Positions 11,512 through 21,917 of a stretch of 39,028 nucleotides of DNA are shown here, in pieces (position 1 is the first letter of the stretch; the number at the start of each line of letters is the position of its first letter). Below the pieces are notes generated by a model, which ran no database searches, had not been told where the DNA came from, and was given only the letters and a program-made list of their open reading frames with translations. The translations under genes were made by a program, and so were the position numbers. Origin of the DNA: a virus; the IMG/VR virus record IMGVR_UViG_3300046753_000530, positions 1-39,028 of that record, one strand, 5' to 3'.

Positions 11512-13050
11512 ATGGCTATTGCAAGTTCTTCGTTAGCGTTAAAACGTGCCGCTTTGATGACGGCTACGAAAGTAACAACCAAACCACCTAGCGAAGAAGT
11601 TCTAAGAGCAAGAGATGATTTCCATGACTTCTGTTGCTTTATGGGTAAGAAGCCTGCAAAGCACATGTTGGAATGGCACAACGAACTATGCACAGGAGAA
11701 GATAGTGAATGTCTAATAGGAATCAGCGGACCCAATACATCGATCCTCGCACCACGTGGATCTGCGAAAAGTACTGTCCTTGGTTTGTATGCAGCCTGGA
11801 TGATCGGGAGACATGCTGCTGCCAAGCAAATGCTGCGCATTCTGTACATCGCATACATGGTGGATATTAGTCGTGCAAAATCAGCAACCATCAAAGGTAT
11901 TCTCCAAAGTAATAAATATCGTGAAGTCTTTCCTATGGTTAGACTTTCGAAAATCAAAAGGTCTGACGAATACTGGTCAATCGACTACGAGTTTGCGGGA
12001 ATTGATACAGCAGGTGAGGAAGCTTTCACAATTGCGTGTGGTGGTCTCAAAGGTGCAATCACCTCTAAACGATCGCAGTTGGTGCTTATTGATGACCCTA
12101 TCAAATCTGCCGCTTCAATCAACAACCCAGACATTCGCCGTGAGATGGAGCAGACGTGGTCTAACGTTATCGCACCAACGATGTTCCAAGGTGCACGGGC
12201 TATTTGTCTGGGAACGCGCTTCCACTTTAACGATATTCACGCAACACTCTTTGTGCCCAAGAACAATTGGAAGCAGATAGTTCAACAGGCGGTAATTACA
12301 GACGCTGACGGAAGGCAACGTAGTTACTGGCCTGAGTTCTGGTCGATGAAGTACCTGAACGAACGCAAGATGGAAGACCGTGTTGCATTCGCTTACCAGT
12401 ACCTCAACACCGCAGTCAAGACAACAGAAGTTGGTATCTCACCAGAGCTGATTGTCAAAGGAGAGATCCCTGAAGACTACGACTGCCTAGGTGTAGGTAT
12501 TGACCTTAGTGCTGGTCTATCAGAAAAGAATGACTGGACAGTTATGACGTTAGGGGGAATTAAAGATGGAAAGATTTATATGATTGACCAACGACGTGAG
12601 CGAACGATGGGCAACATCCAAAAGATGGACACGCTCTGTCAGATGCTTGCTGATTGGAACATCTTGCTTGAGAACGATGATGGTCAGTTCTTCCCGACTA
12701 TGTCACCGTGCATGATCTGGCCTGAAGCAGTTGCATATCAAACATCGTTCGAGGGTGACTTCAAACGAATTATGCATGAAGACCGTTCACTATATAACTT
12801 GTCAGTATCACCAGTGAAAGGATTCAAAGGTGACAAGCTTGCTCGCTTGCGTGGTGTCCTGGGTGTATATGAGCACAAAAAAGTAGTCTGGAACAAGTGG
12901 CGTAAGTGGACTGTACTTGAAGATGAACTACTGAACTTTGGTCATTCACAACATGATGATGCTGTGGATTCGATGGTGTTAACTATGGGCGGATTGTTGA
13001 GAAGGGGAAGTTTACAAATTGACTACAATAGTGATAGCTTTGAACTCTAA
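11512..13050 (+). CDS. terL: Terminase large subunit
   Basis: This 512-residue protein is the ATP-driven DNA packaging motor and nuclease. The ATPase part carries a Walker A-type P-loop LAPRGSAKST at residues 79-88, a Walker B LVLIDDPI at 190-197 with adjacent acidic residues, and a coupling motif CLGTRFHFND at about 232-241. The C-terminal nuclease part has GVGIDLSAG with Asp331, and near the end GHSQHDDAVDSM with clustered Asp residues, as in the RNase H-like fold of large terminases. Length and motif order are complete. It stands in the middle of the structural genes rather than at their head. The start ATG is preceded by an inverted repeat instead of a clear ribosome site. Confidence 0.9.
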   Translation: MAIASSSLALKRAALMTATKVTTKPPSEEVLRARDDFHDFCCFMGKKPAKHMLEWHNELCTGEDSECLIGISGPNTSILAPRGSAKSTVLGLYAAWMIGRHAAAKQMLRILYIAYMVDISRAKSATIKGILQSNKYREVFPMVRLSKIKRSDEYWSIDYEFAGIDTAGEEAFTIACGGLKGAITSKRSQLVLIDDPIKSAASINNPDIRREMEQTWSNVIAPTMFQGARAICLGTRFHFNDIHATLFVPKNNWKQIVQQAVITDADGRQRSYWPEFWSMKYLNERKMEDRVAFAYQYLNTAVKTTEVGISPELIVKGEIPEDYDCLGVGIDLSAGLSEKNDWTVMTLGGIKDGKIYMIDQRRERTMGNIQKMDTLCQMLADWNILLENDDGQFFPTMSPCMIWPEAVAYQTSFEGDFKRIMHEDRSLYNLSVSPVKGFKGDKLARLRGVLGVYEHKKVVWNKWRKWTVLEDELLNFGHSQHDDAVDSMVLTMGGLLRRGSLQIDYNSDSFEL

Positions 13051-13058
13051 ATAGTCAG

Positions 13059-13598
13059 ATGTCAGAAAAAAGAATGGCGGGCGATGCGCTTCGCGATCCC
13101 AATTTTGTCGCCCGTACAAAACTATCTGACGACCCTGAGAAGGCAGCAGAACGTGCTGCAAAGGTAGGCGGAAGATATGACGTTTCAGGATATTCAGATA
13201 GAGATATTTCTATGGCCCTTCAAGGAGATTCATTCCTTGAGGATGATTATTTTCGTTTGACTGGTAAGCGTCCTGGTGGCGACAAGAAAGAATCTGCACC
13301 AGCACCTACTTCAGTTACGCCTCCTAGTGATGACGGTGGCAGCGATACCCCTGCCCCGGTGTCTCCTATGCCGACCAGCAACGATCCAACGTTTGAGATC
13401 ACACCTATTGTTCCTGGTCCTGGAATCTTTGGCGGACAGATTCAGAACGTTCAGCAAGATAATGACATCAACCAGACGATTGGTGACAACAACGTCGTTA
13501 CCAACAACGTAGACAATTCAGTTAGCCAGCAGAACGGATTTGGATCTGCAAATCTGTTCAAGAGCAGGTTTATGAAGGAATACGATTTCTTCAACTAA
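13059..13598 (+). CDS. Probable virion protein with Asn/Asp-rich repeat motif
   Basis: This 179-residue protein has a charged N-terminus (about 1-75, with GYSDRDISMALQGDSF), a Pro/Ser/Thr/Ala linker (about 80-120), and then the motif NVQQDNDINQTIGDNN followed by VVTNNVDNS at about 129-153. The same motif recurs in the next gene at almost identical nucleotide sequence. Alternating Asn/Asp/Gln/Val/Ile like this suggests a short beta-solenoid or amyloid-like zipper. I recall similar stretches in marine cyanophage structural proteins but cannot name a family. It starts only 8 bases after the terminase stop. Confidence 0.6.
   Translation: MSEKRMAGDALRDPNFVARTKLSDDPEKAAERAAKVGGRYDVSGYSDRDISMALQGDSFLEDDYFRLTGKRPGGDKKESAPAPTSVTPPSDDGGSDTPAPVSPMPTSNDPTFEITPIVPGPGIFGGQIQNVQQDNDINQTIGDNNVVTNNVDNSVSQQNGFGSANLFKSRFMKEYDFFN
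13444..13520 (+). repeat. Asn-rich coding repeat, copy 1
   Basis: This 77-bp stretch is repeated 540 bases downstream (13984-14060). The core GACATCAACCAGACGATTGG is identical and the differences are mostly at third codon positions. Confidence 0.8.
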
Positions 13599-13628: not shown

Positions 13629-14498
13629 ATGTCAAACTTTACTCAGCCCAATCAAAATTACTTTGCAGATGCAGCAAAGCGCCACAAGATTACTAGTGGT
13701 CAAGGCGGTGATGCAAAATGGCTAGAAGAGGACTTTAAGAATAAGACAAAAGGTCTTGATCAAGATCTTGCTTTTAAAGCCTTGGATGGCGGACGCATGT
13801 GGGGTGCTAGTGACCAAGCCCGTTACGACAAAATGGTTGCAGCCAAGGGTAAGGCTCAAGCACATCAGAATGGATCAGGCAAAAACAATCAGATCAACGA
13901 CAACATCACCCCTGGCACGGGTCCCAATAAGCCATCACCATATAACAACGATCAGAAGAACGAATCAACCAATACTCAAGAGCAGAACGTCCAGCAAGAC
14001 AACGACATCAACCAGACGATTGGTGATAACAACCTTGTGACCAACAACGTTGATAACTCGATTCGTCAGTTTGGTGGTGACAACCGTTCCATGCAAATCA
14101 ACACCAACGGCAAGGGTTCACTAACTGAACAGCTTGATGGTTCTGCAACTGCTGCCACGCTGGGTGGTTTCTACGATGTGGATGATAGCCCTGCTGCTCA
14201 AGCCAAGTTTCTAGACATGCACAATACCCTTAACAGGGACGCACAGAAAGGATTTAAAAGTGCATCTGATTACTCGAACGCAGCAATTAAGCGTGCCGAG
14301 AAATTCACTAAGATGGACTCCAACGCTTTTGACAAGCGTGTAATGGCTCGTACCCGTTCCAACGAAGCATCTGCACGGATGGCATACACCGATCTGTTCG
14401 GTGATGGAAACGCACCTGATTGGCAACGTCCTGCATCTCCCAAACCAACCCAAGAACCGGATTGGGATGACATGTACAACAAATTTACAGACTTCTAA
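13629..14498 (+). CDS. Probable virion protein with Asn/Asp-rich repeat motif (paralogous segment)
   Basis: This 289-residue protein has a charged helical N-terminus (about 1-75), an Asn/Pro-rich linker, and the shared motif NVQQDNDINQTIGDNN plus LVTNNVDNSIRQ at about 119-145. RQFGGDNRSMQ, a Gly/Ser patch and a helical C-terminus (DSPAAQAKFLDMHNTLNRDA and on) follow, ending in an acidic WDDMYNKFTDF tail. Only the motif is shared with the upstream gene product; the flanks differ, so it looks like a mobile or functionally constrained module. It sits between terminase and portal. A head or portal-associated structural protein is plausible; the family is not identified. Confidence 0.6.
   Translation: MSNFTQPNQNYFADAAKRHKITSGQGGDAKWLEEDFKNKTKGLDQDLAFKALDGGRMWGASDQARYDKMVAAKGKAQAHQNGSGKNNQINDNITPGTGPNKPSPYNNDQKNESTNTQEQNVQQDNDINQTIGDNNLVTNNVDNSIRQFGGDNRSMQINTNGKGSLTEQLDGSATAATLGGFYDVDDSPAAQAKFLDMHNTLNRDAQKGFKSASDYSNAAIKRAEKFTKMDSNAFDKRVMARTRSNEASARMAYTDLFGDGNAPDWQRPASPKPTQEPDWDDMYNKFTDF
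13984..14060 (+). repeat. Asn-rich coding repeat, copy 2
   Basis: This is the second copy of the 77-bp segment at 13444-13520, in the same relative reading frame and about 90 percent identical by eye. Confidence 0.8.
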
Positions 14499-14534: not shown

Positions 14535-16751
14535 ATGAACACACAAGAGAGTGGATTTAAACAGATACTGTCTGCTGCTAAAGAGCGTAGAGGAGACTTA
14601 TCTGTAGATACCATGATTGTGTCATCGCATCTTGCACAGATGCGTATGTTCATGCTGCGTCGTGGTATTGAGTTCTACGCCGAGCAAGATAGTTACGGAT
14701 ATCGCAAAGACTTTATTGCCAAGGTGTGCGAGCAGAACATGCTCGACATGAAACTGGACAGCATCGTCGACCACTTCCTGTGTGACGGTCAAGGTCTCTT
14801 CTACTTCCGTCCTTCAGGTGATGAGTACCAGCTGCTGTACTTCCCAAAAGACAACTACCGTGCATACAGGGATCAAGATGGCAACATCAACAGTGTTGTG
14901 CTGACTTATAGCTTTAACGTTCAAGATAGCCAGCAAGGCTTTGCTGCATACACTGAGCAAAATCCTCGTGGTGGCAAAAAGAAATACATCCGCTTGAAAG
15001 TCTATAAAGACCGTATTGAGCAGACTATCTCAGACGAGAAGATCAGCTTTGATGATCAGATACAGCAGATGAGTAATCTGGCTGGCAAGACTGAGACCTT
15101 CATCAACAGTCTTGGCTTTATTCCAGCCGTTGAAGTCTTCAACTACATGGACTGTACCGGTGAAGCGACTGGTAACGGTGAGTTTGAGTGGTTGGCTAAC
15201 CAGATCATGTATCACGATGAGCTGGTCAAGAACGTTCGTAAGAACCTGAAGTTCTTCGGCAACCCCACACTGATCTCTAGCCGTCCTAAGCACGACATTA
15301 TTGAGAGTGGGAATGAGAGTGAGTTCCGACCCACGATCAGTTCCCAGGCTGGCTTTGCTGCTATGGGTCGTTCCAGCACTCGTGTCAGTGAACCGTTCGG
15401 TGGTGCCTCACCTATCGACGGACAGATCCGTGTGCCTCGGGTGATTGCAAACCTGGAGCCCACTGACCGTATTGGTTACCTCACACCAGACAGCGTGAGT
15501 GGTGACCAGAACATGTACATCAAACAGTACCGCTCTGAGATCCGTCTCGCTCTGGGTGGTGTAGATGATATCGACTTTGGTACAGCAGCTACTGCATTTG
15601 AAATTAAGACGCTCTACGGACGTGTTGCATCAACTGCAGAGAAGAAGGCACGTGCACTATTTACGTACGGACTTTGCCGTCTGTTCGGTCTGATGATTCT
15701 GCACGAAGAGCGCATGTTTAATGAAAGCTTTGCAGCAGCTATTGGTCTGACTAAGCCTCAAATTCCCCTTCAGGAAGAATTCCAAGATCCGGAAGAGTAT
15801 ATGAAGGCGAACGAGAAATATATGAAGGATCTAGCTAAGTTTGAAAAACAAAGGAATGATGAGCTTTCTGCTACACTTGAGTCAGGCGATATGCCTCCAG
15901 GTGTTACTGGTCTAATCCCCGACGGCAGCACGAAAGTTGACTGGCGTTGGATGGGCGAAGTCTTCGAAGAAAGTTCCGACGAGATTCTGCAAAACAGCAT
16001 CGTTGTTCGTAACCTCCAAGAAGCAGGCGTCGGTTCTATCGAAGCTCTCAAATATCTTTTCCCCAATAAAACGGAAGAAGAAAGAGCAGCGATGATGTCC
16101 GGCTTCCCATTCAGGATTGTTAAAGAGACACAATCAAGCATTAATTCATTCATCGGTTTGCTGGGTAATTTGTACCAGCTGCCTCATCCTCAGACACCCG
16201 ACAAACCTTTGGCGTCTGATCCGAACCTTGATATCACAGGGTTCCTCTATAGATCACTCGATTATTTACGTAAGGAGTTAAGTTACAGTGGAAAGTACAA
16301 GCCAAGCAGTAGCGACACAAGCACCAGTAAGCTCAGCGCCGCAGACGAGCGCCGCGCCGCAGCAGGTCAGCCAGTACGCGACGAACGCACCCCAAGCATT
16401 CCAGGCATCACCGATGGGCCAAATGCCCCAAGCTCCGGTGGCGCCCCAGGCACCGGCCCAGGCAGCGCAGGCTTCGGCTCCGGCGGGGAATCCGTGGCAG
16501 GAGGCGTTTCAGGCACTCAGCGCCAGCTTGAATACAAGCAGCCTCTCCCCGGCCCCGGCACAATTCTCGGCTTACCAGACTCCAACACCGCAGGCCCAAA
16601 TGCAAGCCAGTTGGGGTTCAGTAGCCCCAACCCAGCAGCAAGCCCAGTATTCGGCTCAGGAGATTTACAGTCCCCAAGTTTCAACCCCGGCTTACTCTCC
16701 CAGTCAGCTGCAACAACTCCAACAAGAAGCCGTAAGCGCTCCCGTAAGTGA
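14535..16751 (+). CDS. Portal protein
   Basis: This 738-residue protein forms the head vertex ring through which DNA passes. Evidence is its place after terminase and before scaffold and capsid, its length, and portal-like segments: an N-terminal MRMFMLRRGIEFYAEQDSYG, VCEQNMLDMKLDSIVDHFL, a wing/clip-like FIPAVEVFNYMDCTGE, and a long-helix region ANQIMYHDELVKNVRKNLKF with FGNPTLISSRP. A later segment reads YIKQYRSEIRLALGGVDDID. Residues after about 580 become Ser/Gly/Pro-rich and disordered and end RSRKRSRK. That tail overlaps the start of the next gene in another frame over 464 bases. The core therefore ends near residue 585 and the tail is probably dispensable or newly evolved. Confidence 0.85.
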   Translation: MNTQESGFKQILSAAKERRGDLSVDTMIVSSHLAQMRMFMLRRGIEFYAEQDSYGYRKDFIAKVCEQNMLDMKLDSIVDHFLCDGQGLFYFRPSGDEYQLLYFPKDNYRAYRDQDGNINSVVLTYSFNVQDSQQGFAAYTEQNPRGGKKKYIRLKVYKDRIEQTISDEKISFDDQIQQMSNLAGKTETFINSLGFIPAVEVFNYMDCTGEATGNGEFEWLANQIMYHDELVKNVRKNLKFFGNPTLISSRPKHDIIESGNESEFRPTISSQAGFAAMGRSSTRVSEPFGGASPIDGQIRVPRVIANLEPTDRIGYLTPDSVSGDQNMYIKQYRSEIRLALGGVDDIDFGTAATAFEIKTLYGRVASTAEKKARALFTYGLCRLFGLMILHEERMFNESFAAAIGLTKPQIPLQEEFQDPEEYMKANEKYMKDLAKFEKQRNDELSATLESGDMPPGVTGLIPDGSTKVDWRWMGEVFEESSDEILQNSIVVRNLQEAGVGSIEALKYLFPNKTEEERAAMMSGFPFRIVKETQSSINSFIGLLGNLYQLPHPQTPDKPLASDPNLDITGFLYRSLDYLRKELSYSGKYKPSSSDTSTSKLSAADERRAAAGQPVRDERTPSIPGITDGPNAPSSGGAPGTGPGSAGFGSGGESVAGGVSGTQRQLEYKQPLPGPGTILGLPDSNTAGPNASQLGFSSPNPAASPVFGSGDLQSPSFNPGLLSQSAATTPTRSRKRSRK
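16272..16277 (+). promoter_or_regulatory. Shine-Dalgarno AAGGAG inside the portal gene
   Basis: AAGGAG ends 10 bases before GTG 16288. This strong site inside a coding region decides the start of the overlapping scaffold-like gene. Confidence 0.75.
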
Positions 16752-17283
16752 GTCTTACCTGAGCCAGATTTCTGACGACAGTCTGGAAGTTCTTGAGCAC
16801 TTCGGTGCTGAGGCTCCTGCTCTCCTGAACACCTATGCCTGTGCCGTTGAGGATGCCCTCATCGAGCAAGTGCAGCGTGGTCAGTCCCAGGGACTGCTCC
16901 TCGAAGCAGCTGGTGAAGAGCGTGCAGCCATGAACATCATGCTGACCGACCCTGACGTGCTTGCTGACTACGTCAACGAGTTCTATGGTCCTAACGGTCC
17001 TTATCCGACCGAGACCCCCGCTGAAACTCAACAGCGTGCTGAGTACGAAGCCCGTGCACAGTTCGAAGCTGAGATCGAAGCTCAAGAGCAGGGACGCGTT
17101 CCTCAGTCCTTCAGCCGTCCTGAGATGGAAATGCCTACTCCCGGTCGCCAGCAGAACGCTGCTAACGACTTCTGGGGTCAGTTCAGCGACATGATGGATT
17201 CTTCTCCTGAGAACGCCTGGCAGTATCTGTCCCAGGCTCCTGGTCAAGCCTTCCAGTCGAAGATGCTGGTTCAAGACCTCTGA
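16288..17283 (+). CDS. Scaffold-like protein overlapping the portal gene
   Basis: This 331-residue frame starts at GTG 16288 with AAGGAG 10 bases upstream. Residues 1-150 are Ala/Pro/Gln/Ser-rich and disordered. Residues 155-220 are helical (DSLEVLEHFGAEAPALLNTY). Residues 220-270 are very acidic and Glu/Gln-rich (AEYEARAQFEAEIEAQEQ), and the C-terminus is helical (NAANDFWGQFSDMMDSSPEN). High charge, helices, disorder and position between portal and capsid fit a scaffolding protein that shapes the procapsid and leaves it. It overlaps the portal gene by 464 bases in the +1 frame, and beyond 16751 its codons become strongly C-ending, as in the capsid gene. A hairpin terminator follows. Function is inferred from context. 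Confidence 0.7.
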   Translation: MESTSQAVATQAPVSSAPQTSAAPQQVSQYATNAPQAFQASPMGQMPQAPVAPQAPAQAAQASAPAGNPWQEAFQALSASLNTSSLSPAPAQFSAYQTPTPQAQMQASWGSVAPTQQQAQYSAQEIYSPQVSTPAYSPSQLQQLQQEAVSAPVSESYLSQISDDSLEVLEHFGAEAPALLNTYACAVEDALIEQVQRGQSQGLLLEAAGEERAAMNIMLTDPDVLADYVNEFYGPNGPYPTETPAETQQRAEYEARAQFEAEIEAQEQGRVPQSFSRPEMEMPTPGRQQNAANDFWGQFSDMMDSSPENAWQYLSQAPGQAFQSKMLVQDL

Positions 17284-17291
17284 TAACAACT

Positions 17292-17311
17292 GGGGTCCTT
17301 AATTGGACCCC
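17292..17311 (+). terminator. Hairpin terminator after the scaffold-like gene
   Basis: A perfect 7-bp stem, GGGGTCC and GGACCCC, encloses a TTAATT loop 9 bases after the stop codon. The following sequence is TTACAAT, not a T-run. It may be an intrinsic terminator or an mRNA-stabilising hairpin before the next promoter. Confidence 0.6.
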
Positions 17312-18214: not shown

Positions 18215-19153
18215 ATGTCAGCAAAAATATCAGGAGATTCCGTCCGAGCTTACTTGCGTGATATCGGGCGGATTCCCCTTTTGGAGCACGATGAAGAGAT
18301 CCTTCTGGGTCGTCAAGTACAACGTTTGATGGAAATCAAAGCATGCGAAGAGCTTGCTAGTACCAAGACAAAAGAAGATTTAGCAGGTGTACTTGGGATA
18401 ACATTAAAAGAACTTCGTCGTGAGATTCGTCATGGAGAGAAAGCAAAAAATAAGATGGTCACAGCAAACCTCAGGCTCGTTGTTAGTGTTGCAAAGAAAT
18501 ACACCAAGCGGAACATGGAACTCTTGGACATCATCCAAGAAGGGACGATTGGTCTCGTCCGTGGTGTTGAGAAGTTTGATCCTGGTCGTGGTTACAAGTT
18601 CTCTACTTACGCTTATTGGTGGATACGGCAAGGGATTACTCGGGCGATTGCGGAAAAATCACGTGCTATCCGACTACCGATCCACGTTACTGAGAACCTC
18701 AACAAACTTAAGAAAGCCCAGCGTGAGCTGAGCCAACTCAACGGCGAGCTGCCTAATGTCTTCCAGCTGTCTGATCACCTTGGCTTGACAGTCGACGAGA
18801 TCAAAGACTTGATGTGCAAGGCACGTCAGCCAACCTCCCTTGAAATCAAGATTGGCGAGAACCGTGATACTGCTCTGATCGATCTACTTGAAGACGAGAC
18901 ACAGTTGCCAGATTTACTGTTAGAGCGTCAATTCATCAAAGAAGATATCCGCGAACAGATCAGTGAGCTGCCAGAGATGCAAGCTGCTGTGATCTCTATG
19001 CGCTACGGCATCGGTGAAGAAGTTCTTGAGCCTATGTCGATGACTGCTATTGGTCAGCTGCTCAATATGTCACGTGATCGCGTGCGTACTCTTGAGCAAA
19101 AAGCAGTACGTGCACTGCGGGAAAAACAGGCTGAGCTAAAGGGTTATCTGTAA
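18215..19153 (+). CDS. Cyanobacterial group-2-type sigma-70 factor
   Basis: This 312-residue protein is a complete primary-like sigma factor that would direct RNA polymerase to promoters. Region 1.2 is at about 7-40 (VRAYLRDIGRIPLLEHDEEI). Region 2 at about 80-155 carries the polymerase-binding NLRLVVSVAKKY, LLDIIQEG and FDPGRGYKFSTYAYWWIRQG, the DNA-melting and -10 recognition part. Region 3 is at about 156-235, and region 4 at about 248-305 has a helix-turn-helix at SMTAIGQLLNMSRDRVRTLE. No long region 1.1 is present, as in group-2 sigmas, and the wording is cyanobacterial. It lies inside the structural block, so it probably drives late transcription from the recurrent TA(G/C)AATA sites. 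T4-type gp55 is unrelated in sequence. Family call very sure; target promoters inferred. Confidence 0.95.
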   Translation: MSAKISGDSVRAYLRDIGRIPLLEHDEEILLGRQVQRLMEIKACEELASTKTKEDLAGVLGITLKELRREIRHGEKAKNKMVTANLRLVVSVAKKYTKRNMELLDIIQEGTIGLVRGVEKFDPGRGYKFSTYAYWWIRQGITRAIAEKSRAIRLPIHVTENLNKLKKAQRELSQLNGELPNVFQLSDHLGLTVDEIKDLMCKARQPTSLEIKIGENRDTALIDLLEDETQLPDLLLERQFIKEDIREQISELPEMQAAVISMRYGIGEEVLEPMSMTAIGQLLNMSRDRVRTLEQKAVRALREKQAELKGYL

Positions 19154-20762: not shown

Positions 20763-21917
20763 ATGTGGATTGATAATGACTTTCCGAAGCTCCTTGGTGC
20801 TGAACTGTATCGCCCTCACCCGGCATACATCATCGAGATGGCAGTAGAGCCTGTTGTGGTTCATGACTTCTCGAAACAGCCCGGTCAGACTGTGCAGCTT
20901 GACCGTTATCGCTTCTGGGGCAAGCCCGGAACCAAGGAGTCTCGTGAGCGTACCGCTGATCAAACCCTCGGTACCGCATCTGCACGCAACATCGTTAAGG
21001 ACAAGGTCCTGGTGACTCTCCGTGAGTACACCGGTCCTGCCGATACCCGCGATTCTGCTCAGCCTTCCACCTTCAAGGTGGCCCGCGAAACCCTCATCAC
21101 CGCTCAGCGTCTGCTGCTTGATACCGGCAACCTGAACGTGTTCCACCAGTCCATCGGTTCACTGACCCTGCTCGACGACTACCGTCGTTGGCGCGACCGC
21201 GTGTTTGCTAACGAACTGCTGAAAGCAGAAGCAAACGGTCAAGCCTCTTCTGAGCAAGGTGGCTACTACCTGCCCGGTGGCAAAGAAAAGGGCAACACTG
21301 GCGGAACCTTGGGTGTGACCTACGAAGCTGGCGAATCCGCCAAGTTCGATGTCACCACCGACCTCCTCGAAGTCGTCAAGGACATGCGTAAGCGCAACGT
21401 CCCGACCTTCGCTGATGGTTACTACCGCTGCATCGTGGATCCGACCGCGATGATGCACCTCCGTCAGAACTCTGACTTCCGCGAGATTGCTCGCTACCCA
21501 GGCTCCGGGATGATCAATCCTATGCAGCCTAACCAGGCTCCCAACGCCAACTTCTACCAAGGCATGGGTCCTGCATACGGTCAGGCTGGCTTCGTTGCCG
21601 GTCAACCCGTGATGCCAACTGGCTTCCTCTTCGAGGGTGTCCGTTGGTTCGAGTCCACCAACCTGCCTGAAACCTCTTACAACCTGGTGGTTACCGATTC
21701 TGATTCCACTACGAGCGCTTCCGACTTCGGTGCCTCCCAGTTGATCTTCTTCGGTCCCCAAGCTGTGGGTGTGGGTATTGGTGGTAACAACGCTCAGATC
21801 TTGTTGAACAACAACGACGACTTCAGCCGTTTCATCATCATGATCTGGTCCTTGTTCGCCGGTTTTGAAGTACTTAATAAGGACTTCATCACGGTTGGTT
21901 ACTCTTTCGTTTATTGA
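20763..21917 (+). CDS. Major capsid protein
   Basis: This 384-residue protein is assigned as the major head protein. It lies downstream of portal and scaffold. It has a typical length, an N-terminal part with LDRYRFWG, a central long-helix part (DLLEVVKDMRKRNVPTFADGYY), and a C-terminal beta-rich part with FFGPQAVGVGIGG. The last of these is a common kind of ending in HK97-type phage capsids, where the capsid names itself as the default antigenic strand. Codon choice is strongly biased to C-ending codons, unlike most neighbours, and a GGAG site precedes the start, both signs of very high expression. A downstream partner gene shares this bias. The call is not from a named family match. Confidence 0.8.
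   Translation: MWIDNDFPKLLGAELYRPHPAYIIEMAVEPVVVHDFSKQPGQTVQLDRYRFWGKPGTKESRERTADQTLGTASARNIVKDKVLVTLREYTGPADTRDSAQPSTFKVARETLITAQRLLLDTGNLNVFHQSIGSLTLLDDYRRWRDRVFANELLKAEANGQASSEQGGYYLPGGKEKGNTGGTLGVTYEAGESAKFDVTTDLLEVVKDMRKRNVPTFADGYYRCIVDPTAMMHLRQNSDFREIARYPGSGMINPMQPNQAPNANFYQGMGPAYGQAGFVAGQPVMPTGFLFEGVRWFESTNLPETSYNLVVTDSDSTTSASDFGASQLIFFGPQAVGVGIGGNNAQILLNNNDDFSRFIIMIWSLFAGFEVLNKDFITVGYSFVY

Follow-up and report, generated by a model that had tools for sequence, protein, structure and literature searches.

Given that a phage genome appears to be read in two frames over several hundred bases, we asked whether both frames are truly coding, which proteins they specify, and whether this arrangement is a peculiarity of one genome or a property of a whole lineage. 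The window analyzed here is the complete IMG/VR virus record IMGVR_UViG_3300046753_000530 (39,028 nt). On its plus strand, a portal protein gene of 738 aa (14535..16751) encodes a core (aa 1 to ~585) followed by a low-complexity, basic-ended tail (aa ~586 to 738), and a scaffold-like gene of 331 aa (16288..17283) opens inside it at a GTG. Position 16288 lies one base past the portal frame, such that the first codon position of the second gene is the second codon position of the portal gene (+1 frame); the two frames share 464 nt (16288..16751), and the second gene extends ~530 nt 3' of the portal stop. The preliminary description of this DNA, made from the letters alone, had given both frames and their boundaries correctly to the base. 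Its remarks on composition were likewise borne out: the GC content is 0.67 to 0.69 at 16300 to 16600 compared with 0.43 to 0.48 immediately upstream, and across the window’s clade (below) the portal tail is rich in Gly, Ser, and Pro, while the overlapping part of the second product is rich in Ala, Gln, Ser, and Pro. The reading that we consider likely is that the 464 bases form a genuine dual-coding overlap between two same-strand virion-assembly genes, the second of which most likely encodes a scaffolding protein. Within this reading, what was computed directly comprises the overlap and how far it is conserved, the conservation of the start, and the selection on both frames.

The upstream gene had been taken for a portal gene, and this identity is supported by its predicted fold. 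In sequence comparisons, the open reading frame matches the PHROG family phrog_20475, “virion structural protein” (E 1.7e-181), and weakly the head-tail adaptor family phrog_449 (E 0.008); it has no match in Pfam and none in the PDB, whether searched as a single sequence or as a profile, and among the PDB searches only the one by fold succeeded. In that search (Foldseek), the top 26 matches of the model are all portal chains or assemblies that contain a portal (best E 6e-6), including those of T7, P-SCSP1u, 80alpha/SaPI1, PaP3, and others, some of them portal-containing tail complexes. Since the AlphaFold model is of low confidence (pLDDT 48, pTM 0.41), the fold agreement is of moderate strength, and the portal call rests on these consistent matches of weak geometry together with gene order: the gene lies in the head module just 3' of the terminase gene (11512-13050; phrog_38, E 1e-66), with two open reading frames intervening. 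On this basis, the upstream gene very probably encodes the portal protein. The two intervening frames (13059-13598 and 13629-14498) share the motif NVQQDNDINQTIGDNN[VL]VTNNVDNS[VI] and match no family above chance.

Relatives gathered by searches with the portal core fall into four clades: one around the window, in which the second gene starts with GTG, one around Synechococcus phage S-EIV1, in which it starts with ATG, and two more, at 43 to 50% portal identity, that were reached via phage contigs in MAG bins. Once duplicates and contig-edge cases were dropped, 267 distinct loci were left, with portal identity over the whole set going down to ~43%. Both frames are open together in 266 of these, over 446 to 638 nt and starting at the same portal motif. 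The overlap measures 446 to 566 nt in the window’s clade (86/86 loci), 545 to 638 nt in the S-EIV1 clade (57/57), 515 to 539 nt in the third clade (57/57), and 467 to 524 nt in the fourth (66/67), and the portal tail ends at a similar position in every relative. The preliminary description had stated that a stop in either frame in related phages would speak against it; no such relative was found, bar the sole exception (L359), where an indel just 3' of the second-gene start shifts both frames and leaves both open reading frames intact afterwards. In one further locus (L018), the second frame is lost, but only after the portal stop has been passed. Two contigs had been set aside: L201 carries a frameshift in the portal core and retains a 527-nt overlap despite it, and L134, which at first appeared to be without most of the overlap, has a stop 9 bases before its contig end. 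The MAG bins that hold phage contigs of this lineage (L190-L199 and L201) carry labels such as Euryarchaeota, Bacteroidetes, and Rhodobacteraceae, and mis-binning is the probable reason.

The start of the second gene is marked by several conserved signals. In the window, the Shine-Dalgarno sequence AAGGAG, whose presence ahead of the GTG had been reported and is confirmed at 16272..16277 on the plus strand, lies 10 nt before the start codon and within portal codons for Lys-Glu, and a TAA stop in the second gene’s frame (16279..16281, plus strand) lies 6 nt before it. Across the window’s clade, 81 of 84 distinct relatives carry an identical AAGGAGTTAAGTTACA-GTG string, the in-frame stop 6 nt ahead of the start is found in 83 of 84, and the Lys-Glu codons over the Shine-Dalgarno sequence are AAG in 77/77 and GAG in 76/77, though synonyms exist. 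The S-EIV1 clade instead carries AAAAGGAG...ATG (in fuller form AAAAGGAGATGAGTT-ATG), with an in-frame stop 3 nt ahead of the start in 60/60, the third clade carries AAAAAGAG...ATG (in fuller form AAAAAGAGGTAAC[CT]T-ATG), and in the fourth clade the site before the ATG is weak and variable. The start codon, which falls within a conserved motif of the portal, K-E-x-[ST]-Y-[AS]-G, is GTG in 86/86 loci of the window’s clade, ATG in 57/57 of both the S-EIV1 and the third clade, and ATG (63) or GTG (3) in 66 loci of the fourth. Because Shine-Dalgarno sequence, start codon, and upstream stop are conserved, the second protein would be made by independent initiation at the internal GTG or ATG on the portal mRNA. 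No sigma-70 promoter was found just 5' of the second start, and such sites are no more frequent in this stretch than in shuffled sequence. The overlap had also been proposed to fix the expression ratio of the two genes. However, the Shine-Dalgarno sequence differs among clades and is weak in one, while the overlap persists; the strength of initiation, unlike its position and frame, is therefore probably not conserved, which counts against a fixed ratio. In the third clade, the portal codon used just before the start is GTA and not another Val codon, which keeps a stop in the second frame.

To quantify selection on each frame, we reimplemented the OLGenie idea in simplified form, with Jukes-Cantor (JC) correction and without transition bias; SS sites were too few to be used alone. 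Over the overlap, NN/NS for the second frame is 0.33, 0.26, 0.25, and 0.26 in the four clades, and NN/SN for the portal frame is 0.50, 0.49, 0.35, and 0.38, with all upper bounds below 0.7 (0.44 to 0.66 for the portal frame). The controls gave higher values, namely 0.73 to 0.83 for the unused +1 frame of the portal core, 0.84 to 1.07 for portal NN/SN counted with the +2 frame, and about 2 for the unused +2 frame of the overlap. Since the ratios of both frames fall below these controls, both proteins are constrained in the overlap: purifying selection acts on both frames in every clade, and the second is generally the more strongly constrained. The codon-level check that had been suggested, on whether the portal tail or the head of the second gene is conserved, thus finds that both are. 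Synonymous diversity in the portal codons of the window’s clade is 0.35 to 0.6 over the 900 nt leading up to the overlap, drops from 0.46 to 0.6 down to ~0.25 over the Shine-Dalgarno sequence and start, and is lowest (0.08 to 0.21) where the second gene encodes a conserved helix, GNPWQEAFQALSASL (the GNPW helix). As to the suggestion that one of the two tails arose by overprinting, the two frames score equally low for codon typicality (-0.263 and -0.263), which gives no signal on the direction, and a relative without the overlap was not found among the 267 distinct loci in four clades.

At first glance, the open second frame could be a chance by-product of the GC-rich, repetitive portal sequence. 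After synonymous shuffling, the +1 frame was still open in, on average, 4.5%, 0.6%, 4.1%, and 28.8% of trials in the four clades, and recoding with the genome’s codon usage leaves it open in 5%; the figure of 29% for one clade lends this idea its support, while for the window itself the frame stays open in 0.005% of trials. In sequence this rich in GC, the open +1 frame by itself is not decisive. Its recurrence in 266 of 267 relatives together with selection on both frames settles the question; the start lies at the same place and in the same phase in four clades, coding continues for ~530 nt past the portal stop, and changes in the second frame are selected against. We reject the chance reading, to which we assign almost no credence. 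It is somewhat less implausible, although still improbable, that the second frame alone is functional here and that the portal tail arises by passive read-through in a frame which happens to stay open. The tail is of low complexity, and the portal frame is the less constrained of the two over the overlap in all four clades; yet its NN/SN values, upper bounds included, lie below those of the +2-frame control, the tail carries conserved motifs in the window’s clade (EYKQPLPGPG and DLQSPSFNPG), its end point varies little among the relatives, and its C-terminus is basic in all clades (mean net charge of +5 to +7 over the last 25 residues). Programmed frameshifting, finally, could yield a portal-scaffold fusion instead of or alongside a separate protein: as both frames are open over ~450 to 640 nt, a frameshift at any point of the overlap would produce one. 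The conserved Shine-Dalgarno sequence and the start codon, immediately preceded by a stop, fit independent initiation instead, and we consider a fusion quite unlikely.

The alternative that deserves most weight accepts both frames as coding but takes the second product for a minor capsid, decoration, or core/ejection protein. In its favor, the second protein shows no similarity to any known scaffold: neither a PHROG match above chance nor a Foldseek match was obtained, hhalign against T7 gp9 returned a probability of 0.1%, and no kinship with gp9 or with any PHROG or PDB protein emerged. Moreover, several genes, one of them for a sigma factor, separate the second gene in the window from the major head protein gene (20763..21917, plus strand, 384 aa; phrog_1357 major head protein, E 5e-17). 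Nevertheless, the second gene adjoins the portal gene and lies between this gene and the one for the major head protein, and a better scaffold candidate was not noticed in the head module. Its product is predicted to have helices at residues 163 to 330 and a disordered N-half, in which the overlapped part holds a single short conserved helix (GNPWQEAFQALSASL), and beyond the overlap it is acidic (clade mean pI 4.2 to 4.5). In S-EIV1, the order is portal gene, second gene, one small open reading frame, and major head protein gene. Since the second protein matches no known scaffold, the earlier label “scaffold-like” holds for position, charge, and predicted structure, and from this context and these properties the second gene probably encodes the scaffolding protein, whereas the non-scaffold function is a minority prospect. 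The sigma-70-type factor gene between the second gene and the major head protein gene lies at 18215-19153. Directly 3' of the second gene is a strong hairpin, GGGGTCC-TTAATT-GGACCCC (17292..17311; RNA fold z = -3.87), which a scan found to resemble a terminator on the minus strand; terminators made of a stem and a T-run occur at this place in some relatives.

The only relative of the window in the annotated phage collection is S-EIV1 (KJ410740.1), which shares a homologous portal (50% aa identity), second gene (32%), and head protein (67%) in the same order, with an overlap of 554 nt that opens at an ATG behind AAAAGGAG. In its GenBank record, the second gene begins only after the portal stop (59863) and the overlapped N-terminal half is absent, which is why the overlap was missed. 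The S-EIV1 head protein frame (60859-61989) is annotated there as two hypothetical proteins, one on the opposite strand; in our set, this head region is L001:11841-13067, corresponding to KJ410740.1 60784-62010.

Phage T7 resembles the window in its order of portal gp8, scaffold gp9, and capsid gp10, in the length of gp9 (307 aa), and in that T7-type portals are among the best fold matches, but gp8 and gp9 do not overlap, the promoter phi9 lies between them, and the second protein has no sequence similarity to gp9. In the lambda C/Nu3 and Mu I/Z pairs, the scaffold is likewise encoded within the 3' portion of a head gene that lies upstream, although there the nesting is in the same frame and within a protease gene, while here the frame is another one and the upstream gene encodes a portal. 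The claim that an overlap of this length is unusual agrees with a survey covering 12,609 reference genomes of viruses (PMC8903798), in which +1 overlaps, the commonest type once 1- and 4-nt overlaps are excluded, have a median length of 14 nt (interquartile range, 8 to 26), compared with 446 to 638 nt kept across four clades here. Overlapping genes and nested scaffolds were known already; for a long out-of-frame portal/scaffold-like overlap conserved lineage-wide, no precedent was found in the open-licence papers searched.

How the two products might be made and used can be outlined from the dual-coding reading. Some ribosomes would translate the portal from the long frame, continuing beyond the folded core into the Gly/Ser/Pro-rich tail of ~150 aa with its basic end; others would start at the internal Shine-Dalgarno sequence and GTG or ATG on the same message and read the second gene in the +1 frame through the portal tail and then ~530 nt past the portal stop. 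A basic portal tail is expected to point toward the capsid interior. Since this is the site of the scaffold, the tail may plausibly contact the scaffold, or else DNA, while the procapsid assembles. Persistence of the overlap would be due to the tolerance of both disordered segments for a common biased base composition, with residues under selection in both. It is tempting to speculate further that portal and scaffold have been locked together by the ~450- to 640-nt out-of-frame overlap throughout the observable history of this aquatic lineage, the basic tail and the disordered head being coevolving partners in procapsid nucleation, a proposal that we regard as tentative and rather doubtful.

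Whereas overlaps in DNA viruses usually span a few bases, a portal gene here conceals roughly half of a probable scaffold gene, in a widespread lineage of phages related to a cyanobacterial virus and known from an arctic lake isolate and marine metagenomes (PMC5332604). The only isolate record found, that of S-EIV1, carries a truncated second gene, and the present analysis corrects the head-module annotation of the lineage. It also provides a large natural data set on two disordered proteins sharing one sequence and makes a direct test of mutual dependence between portal tail and scaffold possible.

Low synonymous diversity was also observed over the ~270 to 310 nt immediately 5' of the second start in the S-EIV1 clade (L001:10076-10343) and in the third clade (L199:7414-7726), and a near-invariant TTAGGTGTTGATAGCATTGAAGCACTGAA is common to both clades within this stretch. 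Because the other frames are closed there, the stretch could possibly be a cis-acting element, for example, an internal promoter.
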